The notes under the pieces were generated by a model. That model saw only the letters and a program-made list of their open reading frames with translations, was not told the DNA's origin and ran no database searches. Shown piece by piece: positions 1,205 to 25,200 of a stretch of DNA of 64,000 nucleotides. The translations under genes and the position numbers were made by a program. The DNA is from Owenia fusiformis. Taxonomy: Eukaryota; Annelida; Polychaeta; Sabellida; Oweniidae. Position 1 is the first letter of the stretch. Each line of letters opens with the position of its first letter. Location of the stretch: positions 20,040,931 to 20,104,930 of the forward strand of contig CAIIXF020000003.1 of the NCBI GenBank assembly GCA_903813345.2. The letters run 5' to 3'.

Positions 1205-4200
1205 GTACTGTAGTACTATGAGAAACTGTAAATGATGGAATAAATATTAAGAAAATACATTTGATTTTTACCAGTTACTATTTTTCTTTTCAGATTAGGA
1301 TTTAAAAAGAGCACATGGGGATCCTATAAATCATTTCTTTACTTCCATACACTAATGCAGGCCTGTCAACTGTCCCGCAATTTGCGTATTTGTCACGCAT
1401 TTGCTGAAGAATTTGAAGTCACGCCAGTTATTCTTGCGTGACAGAAAGTGTCACGCAAATACGCATTTTACCTGGTAATTGTCAAGCAAAATATTTCTGC
1501 AGAAAAATTTCTAAAAAAGATCGTCTACACAGCAAAAATACGAACGCCGAAAAAAAACGTACGCATTTCGTTCGAACTTTTCACGCGAATTACGTATATG
1601 TCACGCATTCCGTTCAAAATATTTCGTACCAACCCCCCCCCCCCCCCCCCCCCCCCCGTTGATGGATGTTTGAAACGCGAGCGTAGCGAGGTGTTCAAAA
1701 TTTGGCAAGATGTAATAAAATTTAAACCAAGGTGTTCAAAATTTGGATCAAGGTGTTCAGATTTGGACCAAGGTGTCCACATTTTGAGGGGAGGTGTTCA
1801 ACATTTCCAAGTCACTCATGTTAGGTGTTCCCAAGTTGACAGGCCTGCTAATGCGTGTTAAGAATATTTGTTTCAGGACTTTTGAGTACTGTAGGAGTAT
1901 ATGAAATATGCATTTATAAAAATATAGTATAAGCCTGTGCTACTTCAAAGGATGTTTTGTCATGAGAAAGCACAAAATGCAATATTGAAAAACAGGTTTT
2001 CAATAATCTTTCAACAATACCATCCACCATATAGATGTCAGAAAGTAACATTGTAATTATACCATATAGTTATCCTTTCATTCATCCAAATACAGAGTGA
2101 CCTTTAAAAAGGAGACCACTGAGGTAGGCAATATCTCCTAAACTAGACTAGTGACATTGATAAAATTTTGCACGTACCAGAACAGTTCTATGGAAATTTG
2201 TTCCTGAAAGTTTCAATATAACCAGTCAACTGGTTCAGGAACTGTGATCATTTATATAACATGCTCCAAATGGCCGCAATTGAGCAAAAGGCAGAGCTGG
2301 ATTCATATGGCAAAATTGTCAATTACCCTCACCTCAGTCAACCCTTATTATGGTATTCGTTTAGCAGTGATTGCTTCCTTTAGGTCAGCAATTGTCTGGG
2401 GATTGTCTTAGTGTACATTGTCTATCAATAGCCCTACAAAAAGAAATCATGTGGATTAAAATTAGGGATGTATGGAGATGAAGGATTATCTGACCTATGG
2501 CTTATGATTCTGTTGCCAAAGAGCTAATTTAGCCAATCTAGTGAGTTAATTTAGGTATAGGGAATAGTGCCATCTTACCAAAACCACTATATGACACAAT
2601 TAAATCCCACATGACAACCAAGGGCTGCCCAAAACTTCCTTAGGATGGTACTGTAACTGACTGGCGCCACTGAGTTGTAAGCCATATGTCAGATAATCCT
2701 TCATCTCCATATATCCCCAACCTGAATCCACTTGATTTGTTTTTTTAGGGTTATTTGAAAAACAATGTTGACAAGAAAAATCCTCAGACAATTGCTGACT
2801 TGAAGAAGGCAATCCAGGCTAAATGTAATGTCATAATAAGTTTGAATGGGGCAAGGGTAATTGGCAATTTTGCCATATGAATCTAGCTCTGCCTTTTGCT
2901 CAAGTGCGGCCATCTGGAGCATGTTATGTAAATGATTACACTTTCTGAACCAGTTGACTGGTTATATTGAAACTTTCGGGAACAATATTCCATAGAACAG
3001 TCCTGGTGTGTGCAAATTTTCATTGATGTCACTTGTCTAGTTTAGGAAATATTGCCTACTTCAATGGTCTCCTTTTCTTCCAGTCACCCTGTATACTAAA
3101 GTGATGTATAACAGAGCTGTCAAGTGTCCCGCGAATGGCGGGATTTTCCCGCGAATTTGGTCAAAATTTGGCTAATTCGCGTGTCCCGCAATGTCCCGCA
3201 AATGTCGGCTGTAACCTCCGCGAATTTTCAAAATTGTAACAATTCCCGAGGCTAAATAATTGTGACTATCTTGTGATATAAGAAGCTAAGTTTTTTCGCT
3301 TTTGAGGAGTCAAGTTTACCTAATATGAAAAGTGCTGCCAAACTCCTAGTGCATCGATCATCGAAGACTGCTTTTGGAAAGGGAATACATAAAACTGTGA
3401 TTTTGATCCAAATAACACCATAGTTGGCTTCTCAAGTACCTAGTATGCCGTTATTTGGTATCAAAAGAGGAAGAGAGTGCATTTTCATTTTAATTACGAA
3501 AATTGGGATGTTTGTCACGAATAGTTCCAACGTTGGCCTTTTTACTACGCGTGTCACAGCCTTCATCTCATCAGAATTGAGCAAATGTTAGCACGCGCAA
3601 ACGCGAGTTCCAATAAATGGACAATGATATTTCGAAAAGAAACCTGACTCTCTATAATTTGATGTAGATTAATCGAACCCCTATATGAATAGGTACATTT
3701 TAATATATAACACTATGTGGGGAGGGGGGGGGGTAAATGTTTCATAGTAGGTCACGAACGCCATAAGTGCAAGGTATTGTTCAGAATTTTTGAATTTCGT
3801 GTTGGATTACGTCACACCTAAAGCGTGTTTTTTTGATAGTTTAATAATATTTCTATGCGTATTGTGTAGAATTGTGTTGACGTTTAAAGTTAAGTGCATT
3901 ATATTTGATAAATCAGTATCTGAAAGTTGATTTGAGTACTTTTACATTAAGCCCCAATCACGTAAATTCCTTGAATGTCCTGCGGCATCCCGCAAATTTA
4001 GGTGGATGTCCCGCAAAATCCCGCAAATTTAGGGCACTTTGTCTTAAAAAATCTGTCCCTCTATGAAGTCTTTGGTGGTTACCCTGTTAACTGTTCCGCA
4101 ATTAGCGTGCTTGTCTTTCGAATGGTCCCGCGAAATCCCGCTAATTTGATCAAAATTTGACCAAAATCCCGCGAATTTTTGGCACTGGGTCTAAAAAATC

Positions 4201-7200
4201 TGTCCCGCGAGAAAATCTTTGGGGGTTGACAGTACTGTGTATAAATAATGTAATCATGATTTAACTTCTCTTTTGTAAGATGTTGATAGTCCTGAAAAGG
4301 ACTGTTTGATGTACTGTGCTGATACTACTGCTCTGCTCCTCACACAGCATAAAAGGAAAATTAAACAAATTCTTCATCATTTTCAAAGAAGGAATACTCA
4401 GACTCATCATCAGAATCCTAGGTCATCTGGTCAACTTTACTCTTGAGGTCCTCAACTACAGCAGCCATCTCAGTTGCATAGTGGTAAAACATCATCTTCA
4501 TGTTGCTGAGTGTTGATATCTGTAGACGCAGGGAGTACCGATGAGCCTCTCTCTGGTGTAGTTTGGCTTGCTGGTAGCGTAATTCCACCATCTTTGCCTT
4601 GTCATCAATCAGCAGCAGTTGGTCACATGCCCTGGTGAATTTTCTGTAGGCAACATTCAGTTGTTCAGTAGTTTGCTCCAAATCATGGCTGTTATCTCTC
4701 TCTGGCACTCCATAGGCTTCAGATTCTTGTATAGAGTAGGAATCCATTGTGTATGTGTGCCTTAGAGTTGTGATGTGATTGCTAGGCAAATCAGATCAGT
4801 AATGACTTCAACAAAAATCAAAACAGTATTTATACTGCTCTAGAGGAAACGAATGTCACTTCAAAGAAATATTGATATCAGATAGTTTAAAACATCAAGA
4901 GCAAACTTCAAACAGTGAAAATTCAAACATTGACATCAGGCAGTTTAAAACATCAAGAGCAAACCCCAAACAATGGTTTTATATTTTGACACCAAACAGT
5001 GTATTGCACTCACTTCAGACATTGACATCAGACAGTTTATAACACTCACTTCAAACATTGACATTAGACACTTTATTACACTCACTTCAAACATTGACAT
5101 CAAACAGTTTAAACATCAGGAGCAAATTTTAAATGTTGAAATCGAACTTTGACAGTTTGAAACAGTTTAAAAACATAAAATACAGTTATAACAATAACTG
5201 AACCCAGACACCAAATAGTTTATAACGCTCACTTCAAACGTTGACATTTTCAAATACAGTTATAACAAATACAATAAATTAGTATTATTACTATATTAGA
5301 CATCACATTTTTTGTCAAAAAAAATCACAAAATCTGACATCAGACACTTTAAAATTGGATCATGGAAGAAAACCTCAACAATTTTGGAAATTTTAACCTC
5401 AAACTGCAAACAGTATAATTTCAAACACAAGCTGACATTAGACTAATGTGTTGGCTCACGAGTTCAAGTGGCAGTTCATAAACAAAATATAAGTGTTTTC
5501 TTAGATTTTTTTTATTGAAAGACTCCAGAATTTTTAAGGAAACTCCTGTTTATGTGTCAATGCTCCATATCTTTTAAAAAGAAACTCCAGAGTTTTTAAT
5601 ATTATTACCTCAGATGTTTGTGAAGGTTAGAATCACTAGATTTTTGTGAGAAACTCCAAATTTTCAAGAGTAAACTGAGGAGTTTTTTCAAGAGATTACT
5701 TTTTACTTTTTAATTAAAAAACTGATTTTCTAGTAGATTTTTGTCCCCTATTGATTAATGGAAAATTAAGTTTTTAGTAATTTGTGCCAATTTTTTCTCA
5801 GCAAAATCTTTTCGAAAACATTGACTTTCTAGAAGTCAAGATTTTCAGATAATATTTTAACAAACCTGAGTTTTGTAAAAATTACACCAATTCTATTTTT
5901 AATAGTTATCCATTCATTTGTCTTATTATGCCGAAGTCATGGATAAAGATTATGTATCCATAATTTAAATTCTCTTTTATAAGATGTTGATACAATATAG
6001 TCCTGAAAAGGACTGTTTGGTGTACTGTGCTGACTATTTTGAATAGTTATTTTTTCATTTGTCTTATTATGCCGAAGTCATGGACAAAGATTATATGTAT
6101 TCATAAATTTACTTCTCTTTTGTAAGATGTTGAAAGTCCTGAAAAGGACTGTTTGGTGTTTGCTGATACTACTGCTCACACATTATAAAAGCAAAATTGG
6201 AGAAATCCTTTTGATTGCTGCTTCAAACTTGCATCTCACCATCCTCGTCATTTTCAAAGAAGGAATACTCAGACTCATCATCAGAATCCTTGGTCTTCAT
6301 CTGGTCAACTTTACTCTTGAGGTTCTCAACTACAGCAGCCATCTCAGTTGCATAGTGGTAGTACATCATCTTCATGTTGCTGAGTGTTGATATCTGTAGA
6401 CGCAGGGAGTACCGATGAGCCTCTCTCTGGTGTAGTTTGGCTCGCTGGTAGCGTAATTCCACCATCTTTGCCTTGTCATCAATCAACAGCAGTTGGTCAC
6501 ATGCCCTGGTGAATTTTCTGTAGGCAACATCCAGTTGTTCAGTAGTTTGCTCCAAATTATGGCTGTTATCTCTCTCTGGCACTCCATAGGCTTCAGATTC
6601 TTGTGTAGAGTAGGAATCCATTGTGTATGTGTGTCTTAGAGTTGTGATGTGATTGCTAGGCAAATCAGATCAGTAATGACTTCAACAAAAATCAAAACAG
6701 TATTTATACTGCTCTAGAGGAAACGAATGTCACTTCAAAGAAACATTGATATCAGACAGTTTAAAACAACAAGAGCAAACCTCAAACAGTGAAAATTCAA
6801 ACATTGACATCAGGCAGTTTAAAACATCAATAGCAAACCCCAAACAATGGTTTTTAACTTTGACATCAAACAGTGTATTACACTCACTTCAGACATTGAC
6901 ATCAGACTGTTTATAACACTCACTTCAAACATTGACATCAGACATTTTATTACACTCACTTCAAACATTGACATCAAACAGTTTAAACATCAGGAGCAAA
7001 TTTTAAATGTTGAAATTGAACTTTGATAGTTTGAAACAGTTTAAAAACATCAAATACAGTTATAACAATAACTGAACTCAGACAACAAATAGTTTGTAAC
7101 ACTCAATTTAAACTTGACATTTTCAAATACAAGAAGAAAACCTCAACAATTTTGGAAATTTAACCTCAAACTGCAACCAGTATAATTTCAAACACAAGCT

Positions 7201-10200
7201 GACATTAGACTAAAGTATTGGCTCACATGCCAACAAAACATTAGTGTTTACTCTGATTTTTTATTGAAAGACTCCAGAATTTTCAAGGAAACTCCTGTTT
7301 ATGTGTCAATGCTCCATATCTTTTAAAAAAAACTCCAGAGATTTTAATAATATTTCCTCGGATTTTTGTGAAGGTTAGAATCACTAGATTTTTGTGAGAA
7401 ACTCCAAATTTTCAAGAGTAAACTGAGGAGTATTTACAAGAGATTACTTTTACTTGTTAATTAAAAGTCTGATATTCTAGTAGATTTTTGTCCCTTATTG
7501 ATTAATGGAAAATTTAGTTTTTAGTAATTTGTGCCAATTTTTTCTTAGCAAAATCTTTTTGAAAACATTGATTTTTCTAGAAGTTAAGATTTTCAGATAA
7601 TATTTCAACAAATCTGATTTTTGTAAAAATTACACCGTTTCTGTTTTTAATAGTTATCCATTCATTTGTCTTATAATGCCAAAGTCATGGATAAAGATTA
7701 TGTATTCATAATTTAACTCCTCTTTTGTAAGATGTTGGTAGTCCTTGGTGTGCTGTGTTGATACAACTGCTCTGCTCCTCACATGTCACAAAAGGAAAAT
7801 TAGACAAATTCTCCATCAAAAACATGTTGATTGCTGCTTCATTCTTGCATCTCATCATCATCTTCAAAGAAGGAATACTCTGACTCATCATCAGAATCCT
7901 GGGTCTTCATCTGGTCAACTTTACTCTTGAGGTTCTCAACTACAGCAGCCCCCCAGTTGCATAGTGGTAACCTCAGATTTTTGTGAGAAACTCCAAATTT
8001 TCAAGAGTAACCTGAGGAGTATTTACAAGAGATTACTTTGACTTTTTAATTAAAAGTCTGATATTCTAGTAGATTTTTGTCCCCTATTGATTAATGGAAA
8101 ATTAAGTTTTTAGTAATTTGTGCCAATTTTTTCTCAGCAAAATCTTTTCAAAAACATTGACTTCCTAGAAGTCAAGATTTTCGGATAATATTTCAACAAA
8201 CCTGAGTTTTGTAAAAATTACACCATTTCTATTTTTAATAGTTATCTATTCATTTGTCTTATTATGCCAAAGTCATGGATAAAGATTATGTATTCATAAT
8301 TTAATTTCTCTTTTGTTAGATGTTGATAGTCCTGAAAAGGACTGTTTGGTGTACCATGCTGATACTACTGCTCTACTCTTCACACATCATTAAATTGGAG
8401 AAATCCTTAATCCAAACATGTTGATTGCTGCTTCAAACGTGCATCTCATCATCATCTTCGTCATTTTCAAAGAAGGAATACTCAGACTCATCATCACAAT
8501 CCTGGGTCTTCGTCTGGTCAACTTTACTCCTGAGGTCCTCAACTACAGCAGCCATCTCAGTTGCATAGTGGAAGAACATCATCTTCATGTTGCTGAGTGT
8601 TGATATCTGTAGACGAAGGGAGTACCGATGAGCCTCTCTTTGGTGTAGTTTGGCTCGCCGGTAGCGTAATTCCACCATCTTTGCCTTGTCGTCAATCAGC
8701 AGCAGTTGGTCACATGCCCTGGTGAATTTTCTGTAGGCAACATCCAGTTGTTCAGTAGTTTGCTCCAAATTATGGCTGTCATCTCTCTCTGGCACTCCAT
8801 AGGCTTCAGATTCTTGCATAGAGTAGGAATCCATTGTGTATGTGTTTCTTAGAGTTGTGATGTGATTGCTAGGCAAATCAGATCAGTAATGACTTCAACA
8901 AAAATCAAAACAGTATTTATACTGCTCTAGAGGAAACGAAAGACACTTCAAAGAAACATTGATATCAGACAGTTTAAAACATCAAGAGCAAACTTCAAAT
9001 AGTGAAAATTCAATCACTGACACCAGGCAGTTTAAAACATCAAGAGCAAACCCCAAACAATGGTTTTCAACTTTGACAACAAACAGTGTATTACACTCAC
9101 TTTAAACATTGACATCAAACAGTTTAAACATCAGGAGCAAACTTTGAATGTTGAAATCGAACTTTGACATCAGACAGTTTATAACACTCACTTCAAACAT
9201 TGACATTTTATTACACTGACTTCAAACATTGACATTAGATATTTTATAACACTCACTTCAAACATTGACATCAAACAGTTTAAACATCAGGAGCAAACTC
9301 TCAATGTTGAAATTGAACTTTGACCGTTTGAAACAGTTAAAAAACATCAAATACATTTATAACAATAACTGAACTCTGACACCAAACAGTTTTTAACGCT
9401 CACTTCAAACTTTGACATTTTCAAATACAGTTACAACAAATACAATAAATTAGTATTATTACTTTATTAGACATCACATTTTTTCTCAAAAAATCACAAA
9501 CTCTGACATCAGTCACTTTAAAATTTGAAGAAAACTTCAACAATTTTGGAAATTTTAACCTCAAACTGCAACCAGTATAATTTCAAACACAAGCTGACAT
9601 TAGACTAAAGTATTGGCTCAAAAGTTAAGTTGCAGTTCATAAACAAAATATTAGTGTTTACTTAGATTTTTATTGGAAGACTCAAAATTTTTTAAGGAAA
9701 CTCCTGTTTATGTGTCAATGCCTTATATCTTTTAAAAGAAACTCCAGAGTTTTTAATAATATTACCTCAGATTTTTGAGATTGTTAGAATCACTAGATTT
9801 TTGCGAGGAACTCCAAATTTTCAGGAGTCACAAGAGATTACTTTGACTTTTTGATTAAAAGTCTGATATTCTAGTAGATTTTTGTCCCCTATTGATTAAT
9901 GGAAATTAAGTTTTTAGTAATTTGTGCCAATTTTTTCTCAGCAAAATCTTTCGAAAAGATTGACTTTCTAGAAGTCAAGATTTTCTGATAATATTTCAAC
10001 AAACCTGATTTTTGTAAAAATTACACCATTTCTATTTTTAATAGTTATCCATTCATTTGTCTTTTTATGCCGAAGTCATTGATTAAGATTATGTATTCAT
10101 AATTTTACTTCTCTTTTGTAAGATGTTGATAGTCCTGAAAAGGACTGTTTGGTGTACTGTGCTGATACTACTGCTCTGCTCGTCACACATCATTAAATTG

Positions 10201-13200
10201 GAGTAATCCTTAATCCAAAACATGTTGATTACTGCTTCAAACTTGTATCTCATCATCATCTTCGTCATTTTCAAAGAAGGAATACTCAGACTCATCATCA
10301 GAATCCTGGGTCTTCATCTGGTCAACTTTACTCTTGAGGTCCTCAACTACAGCAGCCATCTCAGTTGCATAGTGGTAAAACATCATTTTCATGTTGCTGA
10401 GTGTTGATATCTGTAGACGCAGGGAGTACTGATGAGCCTCTCTCTGGTGTAGTTTGGCTCGTTGGTAGCGTAATTCCACCATCTTTGCCTTGTCGTCAAT
10501 CAGCAGCAGTTGGTCACATGCCCTGGTGAACTTTCTGTAGGCAACACCCAGTTGTTCAGTAGTTTGCTCCAAATCATGACTGTTATCTCTCTCTGGCACT
10601 CCATAGGCTTCAGATTCTTGTGTAGAGTTGGAATCCATTGTGTATGTGTGTCTTAGAGTTGTGATGTGATTGCTTGGCAAATCAGATCAGTAATGACTTC
10701 AACAAAATCAAAACAGTATTTATACTGCTCTAGAGGAAACGAATGTCACTTCAAAGAAACATTGATATCAGACAGTTTAAAACATCAAGAGCAAACTTCA
10801 AACAGTGAAAATTCAAACATTGACATCAGGCAGTTCAAAACATCAAGAGCAAACCCCAAACAATGGTTTTAAACTTTGACATCAAACAGTGTATTACACT
10901 CACTTCAGACATTGACATTAGACAGTTTATAACACTCACTTCAAACATTGACATCAGACATTTTATTACACTCACTTCAAACATTGACATCAAACAGTTT
11001 AAACTTCAGGAGCAAACTTTAAATGTTGAAATCGAACTTTGACAGTTTCAAACAGTTTAAAAACATCAAATACAGATATAACAATAACTGAACTTTTTTT
11101 TTTTTATTAAAAATATTTATTCTCTAAATTAAAATCAAATACATAATAACACTTGACACTTTTAATAAGTGTATCAGCATGAAAACATTTAAATATTAAC
11201 CTGAGTCACATGGAAATGAGAAAAAAGAACAATTAAAGATATTTACTCAGTCAAATGAGAATAAAATTGATAACAATATATAAAATCTACATATATGTTT
11301 GTCAGTAATTCAGTTCATCATATGTTGATGTCATATGAATTTAAAAATTCTTTTTAAAACATTTAATGGAAGGTGATGTTTTCAAAGAAGTTGGTAGATT
11401 ATTCCAAAGCTGAGCACCTGAATATTTTATTGAGTGTTGACCTATGATTGTTCTAAATTTTTTCATGTGAAGACAATTTTGGAATCTTGTCTCATGACAC
11501 TCAGACACCAAATAATTTATAACACTCACTTCAAACTTTGACATTTTCAAATACAGTTATAACAAATACAATAAATTAGTATTATTACTATATTAGACAT
11601 CACATTTTTTCTCAAAAAATCACAAACTCTGACATCAGACACTTTAAAATTGGAAGAAAACCTCAACAATTTTGGAAATTTTAACCTCAAACTGCAACCA
11701 GTATAATTTCAAACAAAAGCTGACATTAGACTAAAGAATTGGCTCACGAGTTCAATTGGCAGTTTATAAACAAAATATAAGTGTTTTCTAAGATTTTTTT
11801 TTTGAAAGATTCCAGAATTTTCAAGGAAACTCCTGTTTATGTGTCAATGCTCCATATCTTTTAAAAAGAAACTCCAGAGTTTTTAATATTATTACCTCAG
11901 ATTTTTGTGAAGGTTAGAATCACTAGATTTCTGTGAGAAACTCCAAATTTTTAAGAGTAAACTGAGGAGTATTTACAAGAAATTACTTTGACTTTTTAAT
12001 TAAAAGTCTGATATTCTAGACTTCTAGTAGATTTTTGTCCCCTATTGATTAATGGAAAATTAAGTTTTTAGTAATTTGTGCCAATTTTTTCTCAGCAAAA
12101 TCTTTTCAAAAACATTGACTTTCTAGATGTCAAGATTTTCGGATAATATTTCAACAAACCTGAGTTTTGTAAAAATTACACCATTTCTATTTTTAATAGT
12201 AATCCATTCATTTGTCTTATTATGCCGAAGTCATGGATAAAGATTATGTATTCATAATTTAACTCCTCTTTTGTAAGATGTTGATAGTCCTGAAAAGGAC
12301 TGTTTGGTGTGCTATGTTGATACATCTGCTCTGCTCCTCACATGTCACAAAAGGAAAATTAAACAAATTGTCCATCAAAAACATGTTGATTGCTGCTTCA
12401 AACTTGCATCTCATCATCATCTTCGTCATTTTCAAAAAAGGAATACTCAGACTCATCATCAGAATCCTGAGTCTTCATCTGGTCAACTTTACTCTTGAGG
12501 TTCTCAACTACAGCAGCCATCTCAGTTGCATAGTTGTAAAACATCATCTTCATGTTGCTGAGTGTTGATAACTGTAGACGCAAGGAGTAGCGATGAGCCT
12601 CTCTCTGGTGTAGCTTGGCTCGCTGGTACCGTAACTCCACCATCTTGGCGGAGTTGGTCACATGCCCTCGTGAATTTTCTGTAGGCAACATCCAGTTGTT
12701 CAGTAGTTTGCTCCAAATCCAGACTGCTGTCTCTCTCTGGTACTCCATAAGCTTCAGCTTCTTGCATAGAGTAGGAATCCATTGTGTCTGTGTGTTTAGA
12801 GTTGTGATGTGATTGCTAGGCAAGTCAGATCAGTAATGACTTCAACAAGAATCAAAACAGTATTTATACTGTCATTGAGGAAACTAATGTCACTTCAAAG
12901 AAACAGTGACATCAGACAGTTTGAAACATCAAGAGCAAACCTCAAACAGTGATTTCAAACTTTGACATCAGACAGTTTAAAACATCAAATACAGTTATAA
13001 CATTGACATATGACAGTTTAAAACATCAAGAGCAAATCTCAAACAATGATTTTAAACATTGACATCAGACAGTTTAAAACATCAAATACATTGTACAGTG
13101 ATAGAAATTACTATAAACTTTGACATCAAGCAGTTTATTACACTCACTTCAAACATTGTCATCAGACAGTTTAAAACATCAAATACAGTGATAGAAATTA

Positions 13201-16200
13201 CTATAAACTTTGACATCAAGCAGTTTATTACACTCACTTCAAATATTGACATCAGACAGTTCAAAACAAAGATAGTTCTCATGATATGATTATAAACTTC
13301 AGTTGGTTAAGTGTGGACAAAAATTTTTTTGAAAAAATTGCTATATGTACCTGCACATGTTATTTTCTAGTACAAAATAAAGTATGAATGCATGTGTGAA
13401 TTTCCTTGCTTCCTTTTCAGGAAAGTATCATTACATTGCAGTCCTGCCAACCTTTTATGAAAAATTTGTTGGAGATTTTTTTTAAAAAAGCGGCACTTTT
13501 ACAGGAGATTTTTCTGGTAGTTTTTGCTGTAGTTTTCAATAAAATGCTGTAGTTTTAGGTGGATTTTTGAAAAATGGTAGTTTTACGGTAGATTTTGTAA
13601 AAACGGTAGTTTTTGCGGAATCATATTATCTCCAGTTTTTCTTCTAAAAAAGCAGTAGTTTTTACAGTTAATTTTCTATAAAGTGGTAGTTTTTACAGTA
13701 GATTTTTGAAAAAATGGTAATTTTTGCGGGATTTTTTTTAAATAACTGGAGTTTTGCGGTAGATTATGAAAAAACAGATTTAGATCTGAAAAACACTCTT
13801 GTCTAAGTTTTTTTATGCTAAATACTTTGATCCTTACCATAATTAGATGAGGCAATCTGTTTATATCCACCATTTTTGAGCATTTCCGACAAGTTAAAGC
13901 AACTGAAACCTTGTAAATCAAGATGTTTGCTGAGTAAGCACTTTCAAATTATCCATGTGCATAAAATGTAGTTCTTCCATCCCTATTTGAACGATGTTGC
14001 CGATTTTTAGGTGAATGTGTGACATTAAGCATAAGGTTTAGTTAAATGCAATTAGAAAACAAAACAATATGATGAAAATATCAAGTAATAAGGTAGATGA
14101 TTGAATTTTTTTTACAAATGATTTTATGGGAGATTTCAGCAAAACTATGAGAGATTTTATGAAAAAAATTGCGGGAGATTTTAGTACAGGAGTCTTAACG
14201 AAGGAAAATGGTAGTTATTTTTTTACGGAAACAAAAAATTTACAGTAGATTTCCGTAAAAAAATGGAAGGTTGGCAGGTATGCATTATCTTTTATTAGCA
14301 TATCTGGTAAAAGGTCAATGGTAACTCCAGGAAATGCTGATATTTCATGCTCTCTTATTTTCCAAATTGTTTTTCTCAAAGTTTCTGGACAACACTGGAG
14401 CCTACATTCACCTGTTTCCAGGTTTACTAAAAGAAGACAGTGTAATGATACTTTCCTGAAAAAAGCAAGGAAATTAACACATGCCTTCATACTATATTTT
14501 GTACCAGAAAATGACATGTGCAGGTATAGCAATGTTTTTGTGCACCATTACCTAAGACTGTTGGCTTAATATTATATTCTTGTATTTTCTCATGAACCTT
14601 TGAGAAGAATCACGTGATCAAAATCTTATCACATTACTTGATATTCAAAAAGTCATACAACGTTTCAAATGTTATCAATGAAAAAATGTCACAAAACGAC
14701 AATGGCAGCCTTCCATATGCTTTCATAGACAGTACAATTGAAGACAATCCGATGCTCGGATTCCCAAATAACTTCATTGAGCTAATGAGTGAATATTTTC
14801 GCATGGTAACTTGGAATGATGTTCAGAGAGAAAAATCAATTTCTCAAAAGGTTGTTGCTGGATTCGTCAGCTCTCCAACACACTTATCTCTTCAGAACAA
14901 CCTGGATATGTTTTCAAATTTAAAAGTTATTGCAAACTTAGGTGTAGGTGTGGATCATTTAAAGATACCACTATACACAGAGAAGGGTATAAAGGTTGCA
15001 AACACACCTGATGTACTTGGACCATGTGTTGCGGATATGGGATTCATGCTTATTCTTGCGACTGCACGAAATCTCAAAACTGGTAATTATACGTCAGAAT
15101 TTTAGCATAGCATTCACTTGCATTGAAACAAAGTCATTAAACAGATGGTGGGCCATCGACCCCTCCCACTTCAAAACAATATTAATCTGTTATGATGCCT
15201 GTGGTTTGTAAAATCTGTCATTCATCTTTACTTTCCATTACATCAGCAGCCTCAGATACCATGGCCACTTCATCCTGAAATGAAGTCACGATTTACTGTG
15301 ATAATCCTCATAGTGAAACTCAGGGTTCTCCACAGGATTTTTTCTCAAGTGGGTGCAAAATTCTCATTTTCACAATTGAGGCCTAAATAGGTTACAATAT
15401 GCCAATTTTCATGATTTTTCTCATTTTCAAGTGGGTGCAAATGGATTTTTAGGTGGGTGCAAACCTGTTTTTTCTAAAATCACAGATAGGTGCTGCGCCC
15501 ACTTGCTTTAATACTGGGGAGATCATTGAAATGTTTTATACATGTAAACTCATAATTGAATTTTCACGTGACTATGACCTATAGAGGATATGACCTTGCC
15601 CATACAGGATATGATCGAAACGGTGACCTACAGATTTACAAAATTTTGAAATACAAATCTTTAAGTCTGCTTAACATACATGGCCTATGGTTGGCATTTA
15701 AGGTTATCCTTTTTTGTTTTGAATTCAAACAATGTTAGATAAAACAACTTACATCTCATACACACTGATGTTAAGTGTAATGTTAATATATGTGTCAATC
15801 TGAGATAAGGTATCAGAAAATGTGCCAAGTACTGAAGTCATCTCAACTGATCATTTGATAATGGTTTGTGGTACATTTGATGACCTTTGAAGCAAAGTAT
15901 GTATGTCCTCTTAAAAAGTATATTTTATTTATTTTTTAATTTTCACAGTTGATGGTGTTTTTCTGGCTGTTTTTTCCATATGTTATCCATAAAATAAGCA
16001 GCCCAACAAGTGAAAATGTTATGCTGTACATATGTATATACTGCAAAATAGGGATGTCAACTGTCCCGCAATTTGCGTATTTGTCACGCATTTGCTGAAG
16101 AATTTGAAGTCACGCCAGTTATTTTTGCATGACAGAAAATGTCACGCAAATACGCATTTTACCTGGTAATTAGCAAGCAAAAATATTTCTGTAGAAAAAT

Positions 16201-19200
16201 TTCTAAAAAAGATCGTCTACACAGCAAAAATATGAACGCGGGAAAAAAAATTACGCATATTGTTCGGACTTTTCATACCTACCCCCCCCCCCCCCCGTTG
16301 ATGGATGTTTGAAACGCAAGCTTAGCTAGCGCGAAAATTTGAGGTGTTCAAAATTTGGCAAGGTGTAATAAAATTTAAACCAAGGTGTTCAAAATTTGGA
16401 TCAAGGTGTTCAGATTTGGACCAAGGTGTTCACATTTTGAGGGGAGGTGTTCAACATTTCCAAGTCACTCATGTTAGGTGTTCCCAAGTTGACAGGCTTG
16501 AGGGATACATGAGAAAGCACAAAGCACAATATTGAAAAACAGGTTTTCAATAATCTTTCAACAATGCCATCCACCATGTAGATGTCAGAAAGTTACATTG
16601 TTTTAGCATATGGTTATTCATTCATCTAAATATACCAAAGTCATGTATATATTCAAAATTTAACTTCTCTTTTGTAAGATGTTGGTAGTCCTGAAAAGGA
16701 CTGTTTGGTGTGCTGTGCTGATGCTACTGCTCTGTTCCTCACGCAGCATAAAAGGAAAATTGGAGAAATCCTGAATCCAAAACATGTTGATTGCTGCTTC
16801 AAACTTGCATCTCATCATCTTCATTTTCAAAGAAGGAATACTCAGACTCATCATCAGAATCCTGGGTCTTCATCTGGTCAACTTTACTCTTGAGGTCCTC
16901 AACTACAGCAGCCATCTCAGTTGCATAGTGGTAAAACATCATTTTCATGTTGCTGAGTGTTGATAACTGTAGACGTAAGGAGTAGCGATGAGCCTCTCTT
17001 TGGTGTACCTTGGCTCGCTGGTAACGAATTTCCACCATCTTGGCTCTGTCATCAATCAGTAGCAGCTGTTCACATGCTCTTGTAAATTTTCTATACGCAA
17101 CATAGAGTTGTTCAGTAGTTTGCTCCAAATCATGGCTGTTGTCTCTCTCTAGCACTACATAAGCTTCAGATTCTTGCATAGAATAGGAATCCATTGTGTT
17201 TGCGTCTTAGAGTTGTGATGTGATTGCTAGGCAAGTCAGATCAATAATGACTTGAACAAGAATTGAAACAGTATTTATACTGCTCTAGAGGAAACTAATG
17301 TCACTTAAAGAAACATTGACATCAGACAATCAGACAGTTTAATACAGTCATTTCAAACAGCCAGTTACTGTTTAAAACATCAAGAGCAAACCCCAAAATG
17401 ATTTTAAACATTGACATCAGACAGTTTATTACTTCAAACATTGGCATCAGTCAGTTTAAAACACCAAAAGCAAACCTCAAACAATGATTTCAAACTTTGA
17501 CATTAATGACAGTTTAAAATTAGAAAAACACACAAAATTTTAGGAAATATAATTTTTTTTGAATACACGTAAATAACATTACAATTCTAGAAGTTATAAA
17601 AATGAATCATATGTAAAATGACTGCCAGAAGTCCAGCCATGAAATATAAACTGGTGAAATATAAATAATATGTCATATTTTAAATGTATTTCAATTTTTC
17701 CAGCTATGGCAGAAGCCTGTGCCCCCTCCCTCCCTAACAATAGCTTTAACGGAAATGCCCTAGGTGTAGATGTATGTGAGGCTACCTTGGGAATTATTGG
17801 AATGGGAAGTATAGGATATAAAATTGCCCAACGTGCTAAAGGATTTGATATGAAGATATTGTACTACAACAGAAGTAGAAGGTTAGTGAAAATAGCCAAA
17901 ATATAACAAAGTATTATATCACATATGATTATGTATTATATGTTATATTCTTTGAAGTTTTTTGAAAATTTATCAGTACAGTACAAGCAATTTACATAGA
18001 AATCATTTAAAACATTTTTTAAAATCATTGCTCCCAACCGATGCCGGCCGGCTATGAGACACAATTTCAAAAGTGGAATGATAGTTAAACAATGAGATGT
18101 GTATATTGAGTTCATTGTTCCTTTCTTTCTACGAAAGGGAGACATCTTCCCAATGATGATGTAAGGGCCCTCTTGTTGGCCCATTGTACCTCCTAATCAT
18201 ATCATATTAATACTGGGTCTAAAATAGTATCACCAATTGAATATATAATGACCTGATGTTTGATGAAGTTATCTAACATTATCTTGTGATCTCGACATTA
18301 GCTCCAGAGGATAACTATTTTGTCTTCATTTAAGCAGCTATTAAAGGAAGTATAGCCTGAGCAAGGGAGATATGAACTGAGAAAACATCACTGACCTTGT
18401 AAGACTAAATTTACCTTTTTCAGACCTGAAGAAATAGAAAACTCAGTTGGTGCTACATTTGTTCCTAAACTACATGACTTGCTCCCTCAGTGTGACTTTG
18501 TGGTTGTGATATGTCCCCTAAGTGCAGAGACAAAAGGGCTGATAGGAGCAGAAGAGTTCAACCTGATGAAACCCACTGCTACCATTGTGAACATTGCTAG
18601 GGGTAGGTGTCATTCATTGTAGTTCAACCTGATGAAACCCACTGCTACCACTGTGAACATTGCTAGGGGTAGGTGTCATTCATTGTAGTTCAACCTGATG
18701 AAACCCACTGCTACCACTGTGAACGTTGCTAGGGGTAGGTGTCATTCATTGTAGTTCAACCTGATGAAACCCACTGCTACCATTGTGAATATTGCTAGGG
18801 GTAGGTGTCATTCATTATACTGTAGTTCAACCTGATGATCGAAACCCACTGCTACCATTGTGAATATTGCTAGGGGTAGGTGTCATTCATTGTAGTTCAA
18901 CCTGATGAAACCCACTGCTACCACTGTGAACATTGCTAGGGGTAGGTGTCATTCATTATTGTTCAACCTGATGAAACCCACTGCTACCATTGTGAACATT
19001 GCTAGGGGTAGGTCATTCATTGTAGTTCAACCTGATGAAACCCACTGCTACCACTGTGAACATTGCTAGGGGTAGGTGTTTTTTGTTTTTTTTTTTCATT
19101 TCTCATTTATTCCAAATATAACATAAAATACATTACAATATTATTGCCTACGTTTTTCAACATTGTCGGCAATATACAAAACATATAAAAATGGAAACAA

Positions 19201-22200
19201 TGAAAATACAATAGATAAGGTACATAATATTAATGGCAGGGAATGTTAGAGGCTTTCAGGGGGGGGGGGGTTAATCTAAAATATCAAGAGCCTGGCAGAT
19301 GTAATGGCTAACTATATGAATAATTTGTTCATTATCAGTTACAGTGAGATTTCTGTCTCCAAATAATAAAAATTGAATTTTTTCATGAGAGTTTAAATTT
19401 TGGAAACGATTGAAAAATACTAAGGTTTTTAGTCCTGCTAGGAGAGTGCATCTTTCTTGTTGCAGCAGAGGGCAGTTTAATAAAAAGTGATGCGTTGTTT
19501 GTTGTATGTCACCACATACGCAGAAAGGGTCATTTACTGTCACAAAGTTATGGGAATATAAATGTGCTTTTAGAATCAGTCCAGCTCTAAATCTATTGAA
19601 CAGAATTTCAATTTTCCTTGGCATTGTCATATTCATTTTAGTAGTGGATACTCTGGAGTCAGGGCTCATATTTCCTCTTACTAACCTTTTAAATCTAGAT
19701 ATTGGTTGGCCTTTCCTGTCCTCATATGGTATGTCATCCCACAGGGTCATAGCCCTGATAATGGTTGACTTTTTGAACGAATTACTGATTGGAAAGGGTA
19801 TTCTATAATGCCTTGGTTGTCTTAGGGGCCGATTTGGAATATTCTCGTATGAACTAACTAAATCACAAATGAAAGGAGGGAAACAATGGTATCTAGCCTT
19901 GAAAGCAAAAATTTTAAGATGTTCTTCTCTCCTGGAAGCTAACGTTTTCCAGTTGAGTAATGATAAAACTTTCGATGTGTTTGAACCGTGTATTGCTCCT
20001 GACACATGGCAAGCTGCTTGATAATGAAGTCTATCCAATGTTAATAGTTTTGAAGTTGATGCCTTATCATATATTGTATCACAGTAGTCGAAATGTGGTA
20101 GTATAAATGAATTATATATATTCACTAGGTATTTACTGTTTAGCATTTTAGTTAACTTTTTCAATGGTCTCATGAGAGAGATTACTCTCTCTATGAGTTG
20201 GTCAACATGTGAATTAAAGTTTAGATTTTGATCAAGTACTAAGCCCAGGTGTTTGTGTTTGGTGCAACTAGGAATCACATCTCCTCCTAGTTTTAAAGGG
20301 ACTGGCTCTTGTAATAGTCTTCTATTTCCTGATACAAAGGTTAAGTCAGCACTTTTTTGTGCCTTAAAAGTCATCTTCCAAGTCATGGCCCAATTTGCCA
20401 AAATGTCAAGATCTCTTTGAAGTGGTTGGTGAATGTTTAAAATCTGATCAAAACTGTCATGTGCACTATAAATAGATGTATCATCAGCAAAAATAAATGT
20501 TTTGGATAGGAGATCATCTGGTAAGTCATTAATGTAAATAAGAAATAGGAGGGGCCCGAGGACTGATCCTTGAGGTACACCTGCATTGATTTTATAGTTA
20601 TTTATATTGTGATCATTGTTATTATTATTGTTATTTGTTCCATTATTAAGATTTCCATAATTTTCAGAAGACCAATCAGATAAGCTGTTGTTGACTTTGG
20701 CTCAAACCCTTCTGTCTTTTAAATATGATGTCATTAGCTGTACAAAATTGAGATTACAACCATAGCCTTTAAGTTTCTGTATAAGTAATCTATGCGGGAC
20801 TAAATCAAAAGCGGCTGTTAAATCTAAAAAAGCTGAGCGGACATATTTATTATTATCTATATTTTCATGGATATTGTGAACAATGTTAATTAACTGGTTA
20901 ACGGTGCTGTGCTTCGGGAGAAAACCACTCTGGAATTTGTATAAAAGGTTGTGTTGAAGCAGATGAGCCAAAAGATGTTTGTGAATGATGGTTTCAAGAA
21001 CTTTCGAAAGGTTACTTAAGAGTGTCACCGGTCTATAGTTGCTGACAAGTTCCCTGTCTCCTTTTTTATAAATAGGAACAATAATACCTTCTTTCCATAT
21101 ATCAGGGAAAGTGTTCTCTTCTAATATCTTATTAAATAGTTTACTGGTTGGTAAAGCAAGAGATCTGGCACATAGTTTTAACATTTTGTTATTAATTTCA
21201 TCAGGCCCTTGAGATTTAGTTGTGTCAAGGTCATGTAAAAGTTCAAAGACTTCTTCAGTCGTGGTTCTAAAATTTTGCATAGTATGTTGTGTTCTAAGTT
21301 GGAAGGGAGGAGTGTAGTCATCATTTATGTTAATTATGTTTTTTCCAACAAAGTATTTCATGAGAGCATTGGCTTTTTCATAGCTGGTACAGGCTGAAGT
21401 ATTTAAAGTGGGATTTCTCAATACTGGTATTGTTGACACTTGATTTTTTCCAAGAAGTTCTTTTATCAATGACCAATAATCTACAGAATTTCTACTAACA
21501 TATTCAATCTTATTAACTAGTTTTCTTTCATAATCAGATTTAGCTTCTTCTATTAACTGCTTTACTAATTGATTTTGTGTTTTGAACTTGTCTCTATAGA
21601 ATGGGTCATTAGTTGATTTAAATTTGTGGTGGATTTTATTTCTTTTGTATATTTCTTTTTTAATGTCATTTGTAAACCATGGCTGATCATCAAATCTAGA
21701 AGAAATTATCTTATTTGGAATATTATCTTTCATGATTTGAAACAATGTTTTAATATAATTGTTAGTTGCATTATTTACAGTATCTGTATCAATAAAGTTC
21801 CAATTGATTTCTGATATCTTATTATTAATTAGTTCCAGATTAATATCATAATACCATATTGTCTTTTTAATTGATGGTTCCCTGGGAATTTTTAGTCTAA
21901 ATTTTGTAACTATTGAACAATGATCTGAATTTCCAACAGGTGGATCCACATTGAAAGTTAGGAGGTGCTCAGAATCAGATATAAGTAGATCAATGCAGGA
22001 TTTAGAATTATTAGTTATTCGTGTCGGTTCATTAATAAGTTGTTTAAGACCTAAGTCAATTAAGATATTACTAAGTTCATATCCTGCAAGATTATTATTA
22101 TCATCCTCATACCAGATATCATTACGAGCATTGAAGTCTCCGTTTATAATCATTCCATCACTGGGTTTAGTTAATACCTGTCCAAAGTTATCTTTCAATG

Positions 22201-25200
22201 AGTTAAAATATTGTCTTGTTTCATGAGCAGACATAGAGGGGGAACGGTAGAAGAACCCATACATTAATGACTTATGATTAGCCTTTATCTCAATCCAGCA
22301 GTTTGACATTTCATCAGACATATATTCATCACAGATTTTAGATTCAATTGTGTCATGTGTCCAAAGAATCAGTCCCCGTCCATTGTTTGCTGAAAATTTT
22401 GGTTTGCCATAGCCTAACACATTAAAGTTCTTGGAGTTTAAATCATTTGTGGAGATGTTTCCTGTTTCGCAAATTGCCATAATATGAAACTGTTCATTTT
22501 TAGCATACTGTTTAAGGAATTCTAATCTACCCATTGAATCAGCTTTGATACTATTTATGTTACAAAAAAGTATTTTTAGATCATCAACCGGTCCAGGATT
22601 GATTTCCACATCTCCACATAACATTAACAGAATTCTACTTATGTGACTTGGGTTATGTATGAGCAGTACCGAACCTGGGAGGCAACCTATTGACAGTACC
22701 AGTAGAAACAATTTAATAACGACTAGTGAAAAATTAGAATGCTGATGCATGACATATGATAGTACATAAAAACATGTCATTGATACCAGACAAAAATAAA
22801 ATACTTGTTGGGCAAATATTATAATAAAAGACAAGAATGTAAAAACCAGTGTTCCATGTTTGGCAATGTTAAACAATAACCCTCCACCAATTAGTAAGAG
22901 GGTTAAGAGAGTACAAATTCTGAAATATAAGCCTGGTATATCACTGGAAGAGTCTGGTGCATTGATCATTTTCAGTTTATGGTAATTAAACAACCCTACT
23001 GCTATTCTCCATATTTCAATACAAATTGGCATTAGCCAATTCCAACCCTAGCAGGATTGTAACCTACATTTATCATTAGAACACATGTTAACTTACAATA
23101 CAATAAAATTCGCCCCCACGGAAAGCCTGTAACACAAAAAAGCTCAAGTTCACAAGTCATGGTATAGGCCATGAACATGGCAGTCATTGTAAATATGATC
23201 ATGTTTGAGATCATACTTTCAATGTGACTGTCTGTGAATAAGGGCTCTCTGGAAAGTGTTATAAAATCATATCTCATGTGCCATTATAAGTTTTTTTTAT
23301 TCAATGTCCAAAACCCTAAATGGGTTTGACATTGTCTAGTCTTTACCCAATCATTATTTAACCATACTGTTTTAAAGATGTATATGTCAGCCTATAATTT
23401 TATTGCACAAATACTTCAAAAAAAGAACTCAAATTTTTGTTTTGAAATAATTCCTCAGTGATAGCATAATAACATTGCATTTAGGACTGTGTATGTGATT
23501 ATACTACACTAAGATTGGATACCCTGAGATTAGATTATTATTAGGTGTAACACAACTCTGGATGAGAGTTGGGATAGCTTCATTCTTAGCAGAACACCCT
23601 GAATTAAAAGACATATTGGACTATTGCCTAAGGGTCATTAGTTATTAGTAAATACAAACATTGTTCACTTTACATGACCTTTTACAAGTTTCCACAGTTA
23701 GAGTGTGAGGTCATTTAGAAAATTGATAGCAGGGTATTGTGATTTAGAGTACTGCAAAACAAAACTTGTAAACCACTGACCACACTCAATGCAATTCAAC
23801 TGTGAATGTTTTCCAATTCCCCAATATATACAGATTTAGCATATACGCATAATTATCCATGATAGAGTACGTTATGCTATGCATAAAAATACAAGTCGAG
23901 ATTGACATATGTGTAGCATTATGCACAAATCGAAGAAAATATAGGCTAGATTCATGTTGGTGTCATTCATTGTAGTTCAACCTGATGAAACCCACTGCTA
24001 CCACTGTGAACATTGCTAGGGGTAGGTGTCATTCATTGTAGTTCAACCTGATGAAACCCACTGCTACCACTGTGAACGTTGCTAGGGGTAGGTGTCATTC
24101 ATTGTAGTTCAACCTGATGAAACCCACTGCTACCATTGTGAATATTGCAAGGGGTAGGTGATTCATTATAGTTCAACTTGATGAAACCCATTGCTACCAT
24201 TGCGAACATTGCTAGGGGTAGGTCATTCATTGTAGTTCAACCTGATGAAACCCACTGCTACCATTGTGAACATTGCTAGGGGTAGGTGTCATTCATTGTA
24301 GTTCAACCTGATGAAACCCACTGCTACCATTGTGAACATTGCTAGGGGTAGGTGTCATTCATTGGAGTTAACCTGATGAAACCCACTGCTACCATTGTGA
24401 ACATTGCTAGAGGTAGGTCATTTATTGTAGTTCAACCTGATGAAACCCACTGCTACCACTGTGAACGTTGCTAGGGGTAGGTGTCATTCATTGTAGTTCA
24501 ACCTGATGAAACCCACTGCTACCATTGTGAATATTGCTAGGGGTAGGTATCATTCATTGGAGTTAACCTGATGAAACCCACTGCTACCATTGTGAACATT
24601 GCTAGGGGTAGGTGTCATTCATTGTAGTTCAACCTGATGAAACCCACTGCTACCATTGTGAACATTGCTAGGGGTAGGTGTCATTCATTGGAGTTAACCT
24701 GATGAAACCCACTGCTACCATTGTGAACATTGCTAGAGGTAGGTCATTTATTGTAGTTCAACCTGATGAAACCCACTGCTACCACTGTGAACGTTGCTAG
24801 GGGTAGGTGTCATTCATTGTAGTTCAACCTGATGAAACCCACTGCTACCATTGTGAACATTGCTAGAGGTAGGTCATTTATTGTAGTTCAACCTGATGAA
24901 ACCCACTGCTACCATTGTGAACATTGCTAGGGGTAGGTCATTCATTGTAGTTCTACCTGATGAAACTCACTGCTACCATTGTGAACATTGCTAGGGGTAG
25001 GTGATTCATTATAGTTCAACTTGATGAAACCCATTGCTACCATTGCGGACATTGCTAGGGGTAGGTCATTCATTGTAATTCAGCCTGGTGAAACCCATTG
25101 CTACCATTGTGAACATTGCTAGAGGTAGGTCATTTATTGTATTAAACTACAGAATTGAATTAGATTTTATATCCCACCAAGAATTAGAGGCAATTTCTTC

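Follow-up and report, generated by a model that had tools for sequence, protein, structure and literature searches.

The closest described counterpart of the genes reported here is the 3' end of histone mRNAs (Rfam RF00032, Histone3), which involves SLBP and the U7 small nuclear ribonucleoprotein (snRNP). SLBP reads a guanine of the hairpin (PMC10388802). Here we describe a 64,000-nucleotide (nt) stretch of the Owenia fusiformis genome (assembly GCA_903813345.2, contig CAIIXF020000003.1, positions 20,040,931 to 20,104,930; hereafter the window), which contains a tandem array of small non-histone genes with a hairpin and a U7-site-like tag behind their coding regions. The 3' ends of this family and of histone mRNAs have in common a 6-bp stem whose second position is a G, a four-base loop, a purine tag ~14 nt downstream, an intronless gene and, in most family members, AA ahead of the stem. 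They differ in that the family is not histone-coding, the outer and third stem pairs vary, and the hairpin lies at a median of 82 nt past the stop codon (24-37 nt in several diverged members), compared with ~21-34 nt, a 5-nt flank added, in the histone genes of the same species.

The hairpin is not new outside histone genes, since the Cg-1 and Tm1-HH elements of Meloidogyne (root-knot nematodes) have been reported to carry it, and this was the only non-histone precedent noticed in the open-licence literature. Hairpin-bearing Tm1 has no obvious protein-coding potential, whereas here a conserved protein family carries both hairpin and tag (PMC3169594 for the Meloidogyne elements). In an annelid histone paper, the term stem-loop was absent from the sections at hand (PMC12153100). 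As far as the open-licence literature could show, what is new is the combination of hairpin and tag on a conserved family of protein-coding genes.

A multicopy gene family with histone-type 3' ends

The minus strand of the window between 4240 and 17300 carries six copies of the gene with an open reading frame (ORF) and one truncated copy. A first-pass annotation, made from the sequence alone, had described six ORF-bearing copies ending in the same 16-nt hairpin 70-115 nt after the ORF. Exact matches to AGTCCT-TTTC-AGGACT bear this out, the first hairpin of each copy lying 72-114 nt past the stop and being followed by a ACAAAAGAGAA-like tag. All six copies are present, but only four are full-length, as copy 1 has an early stop and copy 5 is frame-broken. 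The exact hairpins number seven, all on the minus strand, the additional one being a second hairpin behind copy 2. When up to 3 mismatches were allowed, 9 matches were found in the window against 0.65 expected, and none of 100 shuffles reached 9. In the truncated copy (~7848-8009) the hairpin is gone, as had been noted, and the tag is retained. In a covariance-model scan, which the annotation had proposed, Rfam Histone3 lists six of the seven window hairpins (not 6135-6150), with alignments extending through the flanks. Their scores of 19.8-29.3 bits (E 6e-5 to 0.2) do not reach the curated cut-off of 34; relatives elsewhere in the genome exceed it. At the gathering threshold the window had no match to any Rfam family, and rows for snR75, SQ1002 and SNORD43, which fell under their own cut-offs, were set aside.

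The family extends well beyond the window. A protein search of the genome (498 Mb in 525 contigs, the long ones designated C1-C12) gave 83 matches, most of them in tandem arrays, on C1, C3, C4, C6, C7, C8, C10 and C12; two genes are split into two matches each, so that the matches represent ~81 genes. For 64 family regions the sequence was fetched, and the other matches were read from the window and earlier loci. An uninterrupted ORF of at least 85 residues without introns is found in 75 of the 83 matches, with early stops shortening some. A histone-type hairpin and a U7-site-like tag, under a loose tag rule, follow 77 of the 83 matches (76 of 81 genes); under a strict rule there is a perfect 6-bp stem in 72 of 83, including one chance hairpin, and a tag in 68, both counts including the frame-broken window copy 5 twice. 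The 77 stems comprise GGTCCT/AGGACC (47), AGTCCT/AGGACT (11, copy 5 again entered twice), GGCCCT/AGGGCC (9), TGCCCT/AGGGCA (3) and 7 departures. Of these 77, 65 have the loop TTTC and 8 have TTTA. The second-position G occurs in 77/77, as the search pattern required, and also in two decayed hairpins outside the pattern. Diverged members on C7 and C8 retain the hairpin, and three very weak C8 relatives found by protein (E 0.015-0.029) all have AGCCCT-TTTC-AGGGCT 24 nt past the stop, with a tag.

Six of the 83 matches lack the module. Two are parts of a single broken gene, with a hairpin that is one loop base short, one is an internally deleted gene with a mispaired hairpin, one is the truncated window copy, and two are full-length diverged members, C1:29302168 and C6:24490396. 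The former has AATAAA 275 nt past the stop, and no AATAAA was present in the 346 nt read for the latter. Replication-independent histone variants exist beside replication-dependent histones. Similarly, this family has hairpin-type members and members without the hairpin, with the differences that these are not histones and that AATAAA was in the stretch read for only one of the two.

Some 3' regions contain more than one hairpin. We observed a total of 14 additional hairpin-like matches, spread over 11 places (C8:18531842, C8:18533735, C8:18535652, C8:17343594, C10:14520479, C8:13692979, C8:35005335, C8:35007568, C8:4123625, C6:36396257 and window copy 2), and several of the upstream ones lack a tag at the typical spacing.

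Conservation and predicted processing of the 3' ends

Genome-wide searches argue for a real module. The genome contains the pattern GGYCCTTTTCAGGRCC 95 times, 51 of them behind family matches, and the wider pattern RGYCCTTTTCAGGRCY 135 times, compared with 0 for either pattern reversed; together with the shuffles in the window, these controls rule out chance hairpins. Rfam Histone3 gave at least 74 hits in the genome, 73 of them over the cut-off, counts that are lower bounds because 75 of 98227 candidates were scored. The same model matched one of 14 control genomes, with no hit over the cut-off. At least 21 of the 74 hits lie 30-114 nt behind family matches and are over the cut-off, and the other 53, by ORF reading, include at least 25 histone genes (named by eye as 20 H1, 4 H2A and 1 H2B), 4 family members that are distant or broken, and 24 loci of other kinds. 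These histone genes allowed a direct comparison. In them the tag follows the stem by 14 nt in 20 of 25 cases and by 13 or 15 nt in 3, with none found in 2; in the family (n=68) it starts at 14 nt in 50, 13 in 15, 15 in 2 and 21 in 1. The core TTACAAAAGAGAA is the tag consensus in the family and in 23 histone genes alike. The purine-rich, U7-like element proposed at first stands at the right distance, with the same core and the same usual spacing as in the animal's own histone genes.

The hairpin and tag are conserved islands in otherwise unalignable 3' regions. In a hairpin-anchored alignment of 19 representatives, mean identity was 0.89 in the hairpin, a figure favored by anchoring on the hairpin pattern, and 0.69 in the tag, compared with 0.27 upstream and 0.31 further downstream. 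A count over 56 distinct sequences found 14 cells with compensatory stem changes (both sides changed, still paired), whereas 1000 shuffles, which do not keep relatedness, reached at most 7. Only pairs 1 and 3 are informative here, because the pattern constrains the other pairs. These results bear on the possibility that the hairpin is a functionless passenger of tandem duplication and gene conversion. One hairpin type is largely common to the copies of an array, and several broken copies, among them window copies 1 and 5, retain it, which would suit a passenger and counts against a functional end. However, flanks near random identity beside a conserved hairpin and tag, the compensatory changes and the persistence of the hairpin in the diverged C7 and C8 members all speak against such a passenger, which we consider very improbable.

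Taken together, we estimate at about 0.85 the probability that this intronless multicopy family uses the replication-dependent histone 3' end module, an SLBP hairpin with a U7 site, instead of a poly(A) signal. The proposal that non-histone genes carry a histone-type 3' end is strongly supported by the Rfam similarity, the tag and its spacing, conservation, genome-wide consistency and the loss of the hairpin in some broken copies. The hairpin-and-tag end makes it probable that the genes of the family undergo the same kind of processing and control as histone genes. SLBP and the U7 snRNP would cleave the pre-mRNAs a few nt past the hairpin, with the U7 small nuclear RNA (snRNA) pairing with the tag CAAAAGAGAA, and the resulting mRNAs without poly(A) would be translated, stored and degraded along with histone mRNAs. 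Synthesis of the protein would in that case come as a burst, either during S phase or in eggs and cleavage-stage embryos. Such timing, which the annotation had proposed, would be a natural consequence, to which we give somewhat less than even odds. The tandem arrays and the TATA box that family promoters usually have are consistent with high output; in the main arrays this box lies ~83 nt before the start codon, and none was matched in the three C4 members.

The machinery for this processing was searched for in the genome. Two stretches exceed the PF15247 cut-off for SLBP, compared with none in the 14 control genomes. The SLBP RNA-binding domain spans two exons and includes the stretches YGKNT, HPKTPNK and SRRSWD, which we take to have a role in SLBP. 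The conservation of hairpin and tag, their shared spacing, the compensatory changes and the presence of SLBP strongly predict mRNAs without poly(A). Several observations weigh on the other side. U7 snRNA was not found in searches that were themselves weak: the Rfam model gave one hit (E 0.997) and also matched 6 of 14 control genomes, pattern matches were no commoner than in controls (6 vs 19 and 19 vs 24), and none of the candidates read and folded (6/6 of the first pattern and 4/19 of the second) was convincing. In addition, none of the boxes of 11 histone promoters was seen by eye in family promoters, in which respect the family differs from histone genes. Transcriptional S-phase control thus need not be common to the two. 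Lastly, of 72 genes, 16 have AATAAA and 25 have ATTAAA in the first 300 nt past the stop, which makes polyadenylated forms possible.

Two of these points also favor other readings of the same ends. SLBP might read the hairpin for translation control or storage only, with no U7 cleavage, in keeping with the negative searches for U7 snRNA and with the several extra hairpins that lack a tag at the typical spacing. The presence of the tag at the same spacing as in histone genes makes this quite improbable. Some histone genes also give downstream-polyadenylated transcripts. The module might likewise work here while many transcripts are polyadenylated downstream, at least in non-dividing cells, as the AATAAA and ATTAAA counts would allow. 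AATAAA is, however, rare between the stop and the hairpin (2/75, or 3/72 in a second count), and poly(A) ends would not need the conserved tag; we regard such dual ends as rather unlikely.

The protein and the module at other loci

The product has ~100-170 residues and a predicted helical structure, and most members end in an acidic tail. In all 28 pairs among 8 genes, two of which come from the same array, the ratio of nonsynonymous to synonymous substitution rates was 0.11-0.31, and by this sequence measure the ORF is under purifying selection. The family had been called non-histone, and indeed no histone family was among those listed for 20 members (Pfam, E up to 0.1) and acidic residues outnumber basic ones (30 against 17); a histone identity was rejected. 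Tubulin-binding cofactor A (PF02970), presumably a three-helix bundle, resembles the family as a small helical protein with weak profile similarity, seen in 8 of the 20 members (best E 6.4e-5). It differs in that the family has an acidic tail and scores 18.9, 20.7 and 21.1 bits, where given, under the cut-off of 30.3, and membership was not accepted. A structure model from five window copies gave one long helix, with a predicted template modeling score of 0.39. Two profile hits to BAP31 in the PDB (E 1.1e-5 and 1.4e-5) were read as coiled-coil resemblance, and no viral relatives were confirmed among 19 pattern stretches. For its role we tentatively favor a helper linked to chromatin or to the cytoskeleton, required in amounts that scale with the number of new nuclei.

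The same module was observed on other loci. Small cysteine-rich RING-like proteins of 92-100 residues on C10 (L091-L093) have GGCCCT-TTTC-AGGGCC 19 nt past the stop, flank added, and further matches, several with stops, lie on C4 and C10. Other small proteins with a histone-type hairpin and tag (L132, L136, L094, L148; L143, L144; L145; L095) are probably helical, and their hairpins lie ~28-41 nt past the stop where measured. GDSL/SGNH-like proteins carry the module at L114 and L139, and probably at L119 and L138, which have long near-identical stretches in common. Tc1/mariner-like (DDE_3) transposase sequence accompanies a histone-type hairpin at L116, L096, L100 and L137. Hairpin-bearing, possibly mobile repeats were also found (L121-L125, L129, L131; L146, L147, L149-L151; L088, L140), and several of the first group have a second hairpin nearby.

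These loci raise the question of origin, as distinct from present function. Mobile elements might have spread the module and many genes captured it, the genes being beneficiaries or domesticated elements. The transposase-related loci and the first two groups of repeats point this way, as does a sub-threshold Retrotrans_gag match (Pfam, E 0.04) of one family protein, and the Tm1-HH elements of root-knot nematodes offer a precedent (PMC3169594). The purifying selection on the ORF and the constant place of the module behind it argue against this origin, which we judge unlikely. It is probable, in our view, that O. fusiformis has a second, non-histone SLBP/U7 regulon, in which the family of ~80 genes, several unrelated small-protein families and transposon-like repeats would give non-polyadenylated, hairpin-ended mRNAs; like the histones, the family would include members of the hairpin type and of the poly(A) type.

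Layout of the window and biological meaning

The features of the array are collected in Table 1.

Table 1. Features of the tandem gene array in the window.
Feature	Position	Strand	Evidence or remark
Copy 1 coding region, without tail because of an early stop	4418..4747	-	ORF reading
Copy 1 hairpin	4288..4303	-	Pattern match; Histone3 27.0 bits
Copy 1 U7-site-like tag ACAAAAGAGAAG	4265..4276	-	
Copy 2 coding region, full length	6223..6621	-	
Copy 2 first hairpin, 72 nt past stop	6135..6150	-	Pattern match; absent from Histone3 list
Copy 2 tag after first hairpin	6112..6123	-	
Copy 2 second hairpin, 208 nt past stop, tag more distant	5999..6014	-	Histone3 19.8 bits, E 0.21
Truncated pseudo-copy, hairpin lost, tag kept downstream	7848..8009	-	
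Copy 3 coding region, full length	8433..8834	-	
Copy 3 hairpin	8328..8343	-	Histone3 29.3 bits, E 5.7e-5
Copy 3 tag	8305..8316	-	
Copy 3 TATA box; similar position in other five copies	8916..8921	-	
Copy 4 coding region, full length	10237..10638	-	
Copy 4 hairpin	10131..10146	-	Histone3 26.1 bits
Copy 4 tag	10108..10119	-	
Copy 5, frame-broken	12398..12785	-	
Copy 5 hairpin	12286..12301	-	Histone3 27.0 bits
Copy 5 tag	12263..12274	-	
Copy 6 coding region, full length	16799..17194	-	
Copy 6 hairpin	16687..16702	-	Histone3 28.9 bits
Copy 6 tag	16664..16675	-	

Two fragments of a hydroxyacid dehydrogenase gene at 784-1221 and 14614-15105 are each followed by matching repeats (1359-1847 and 16050-16500), which suggests a segmental duplication around the array. 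Remains of a retrotransposon without long terminal repeats (non-LTR), with endonuclease and reverse transcriptase, lie on the minus strand at 20702-23032; the ORF at 19271-20401, which has no Pfam match, is perhaps part of the same remains. A tandem repeat with a unit of ~66 bp occupies 18502-19079, and a long inverted repeat, with arms of 235 nt that are 89% complementary, lies at 2107-2341 and 2842-3076.

The hairpin-and-tag 3' end has been thought exclusive to histone messages in animals, and if the transcripts of this family end as predicted, at least one animal breaks the rule. These genes would then offer a natural experiment on the role of the hairpin apart from histones, and such genes would presumably be under-sampled in RNA sequencing of poly(A)-selected material. 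The family might also bring to light proteins whose supply has to keep pace with DNA replication or early cleavage.

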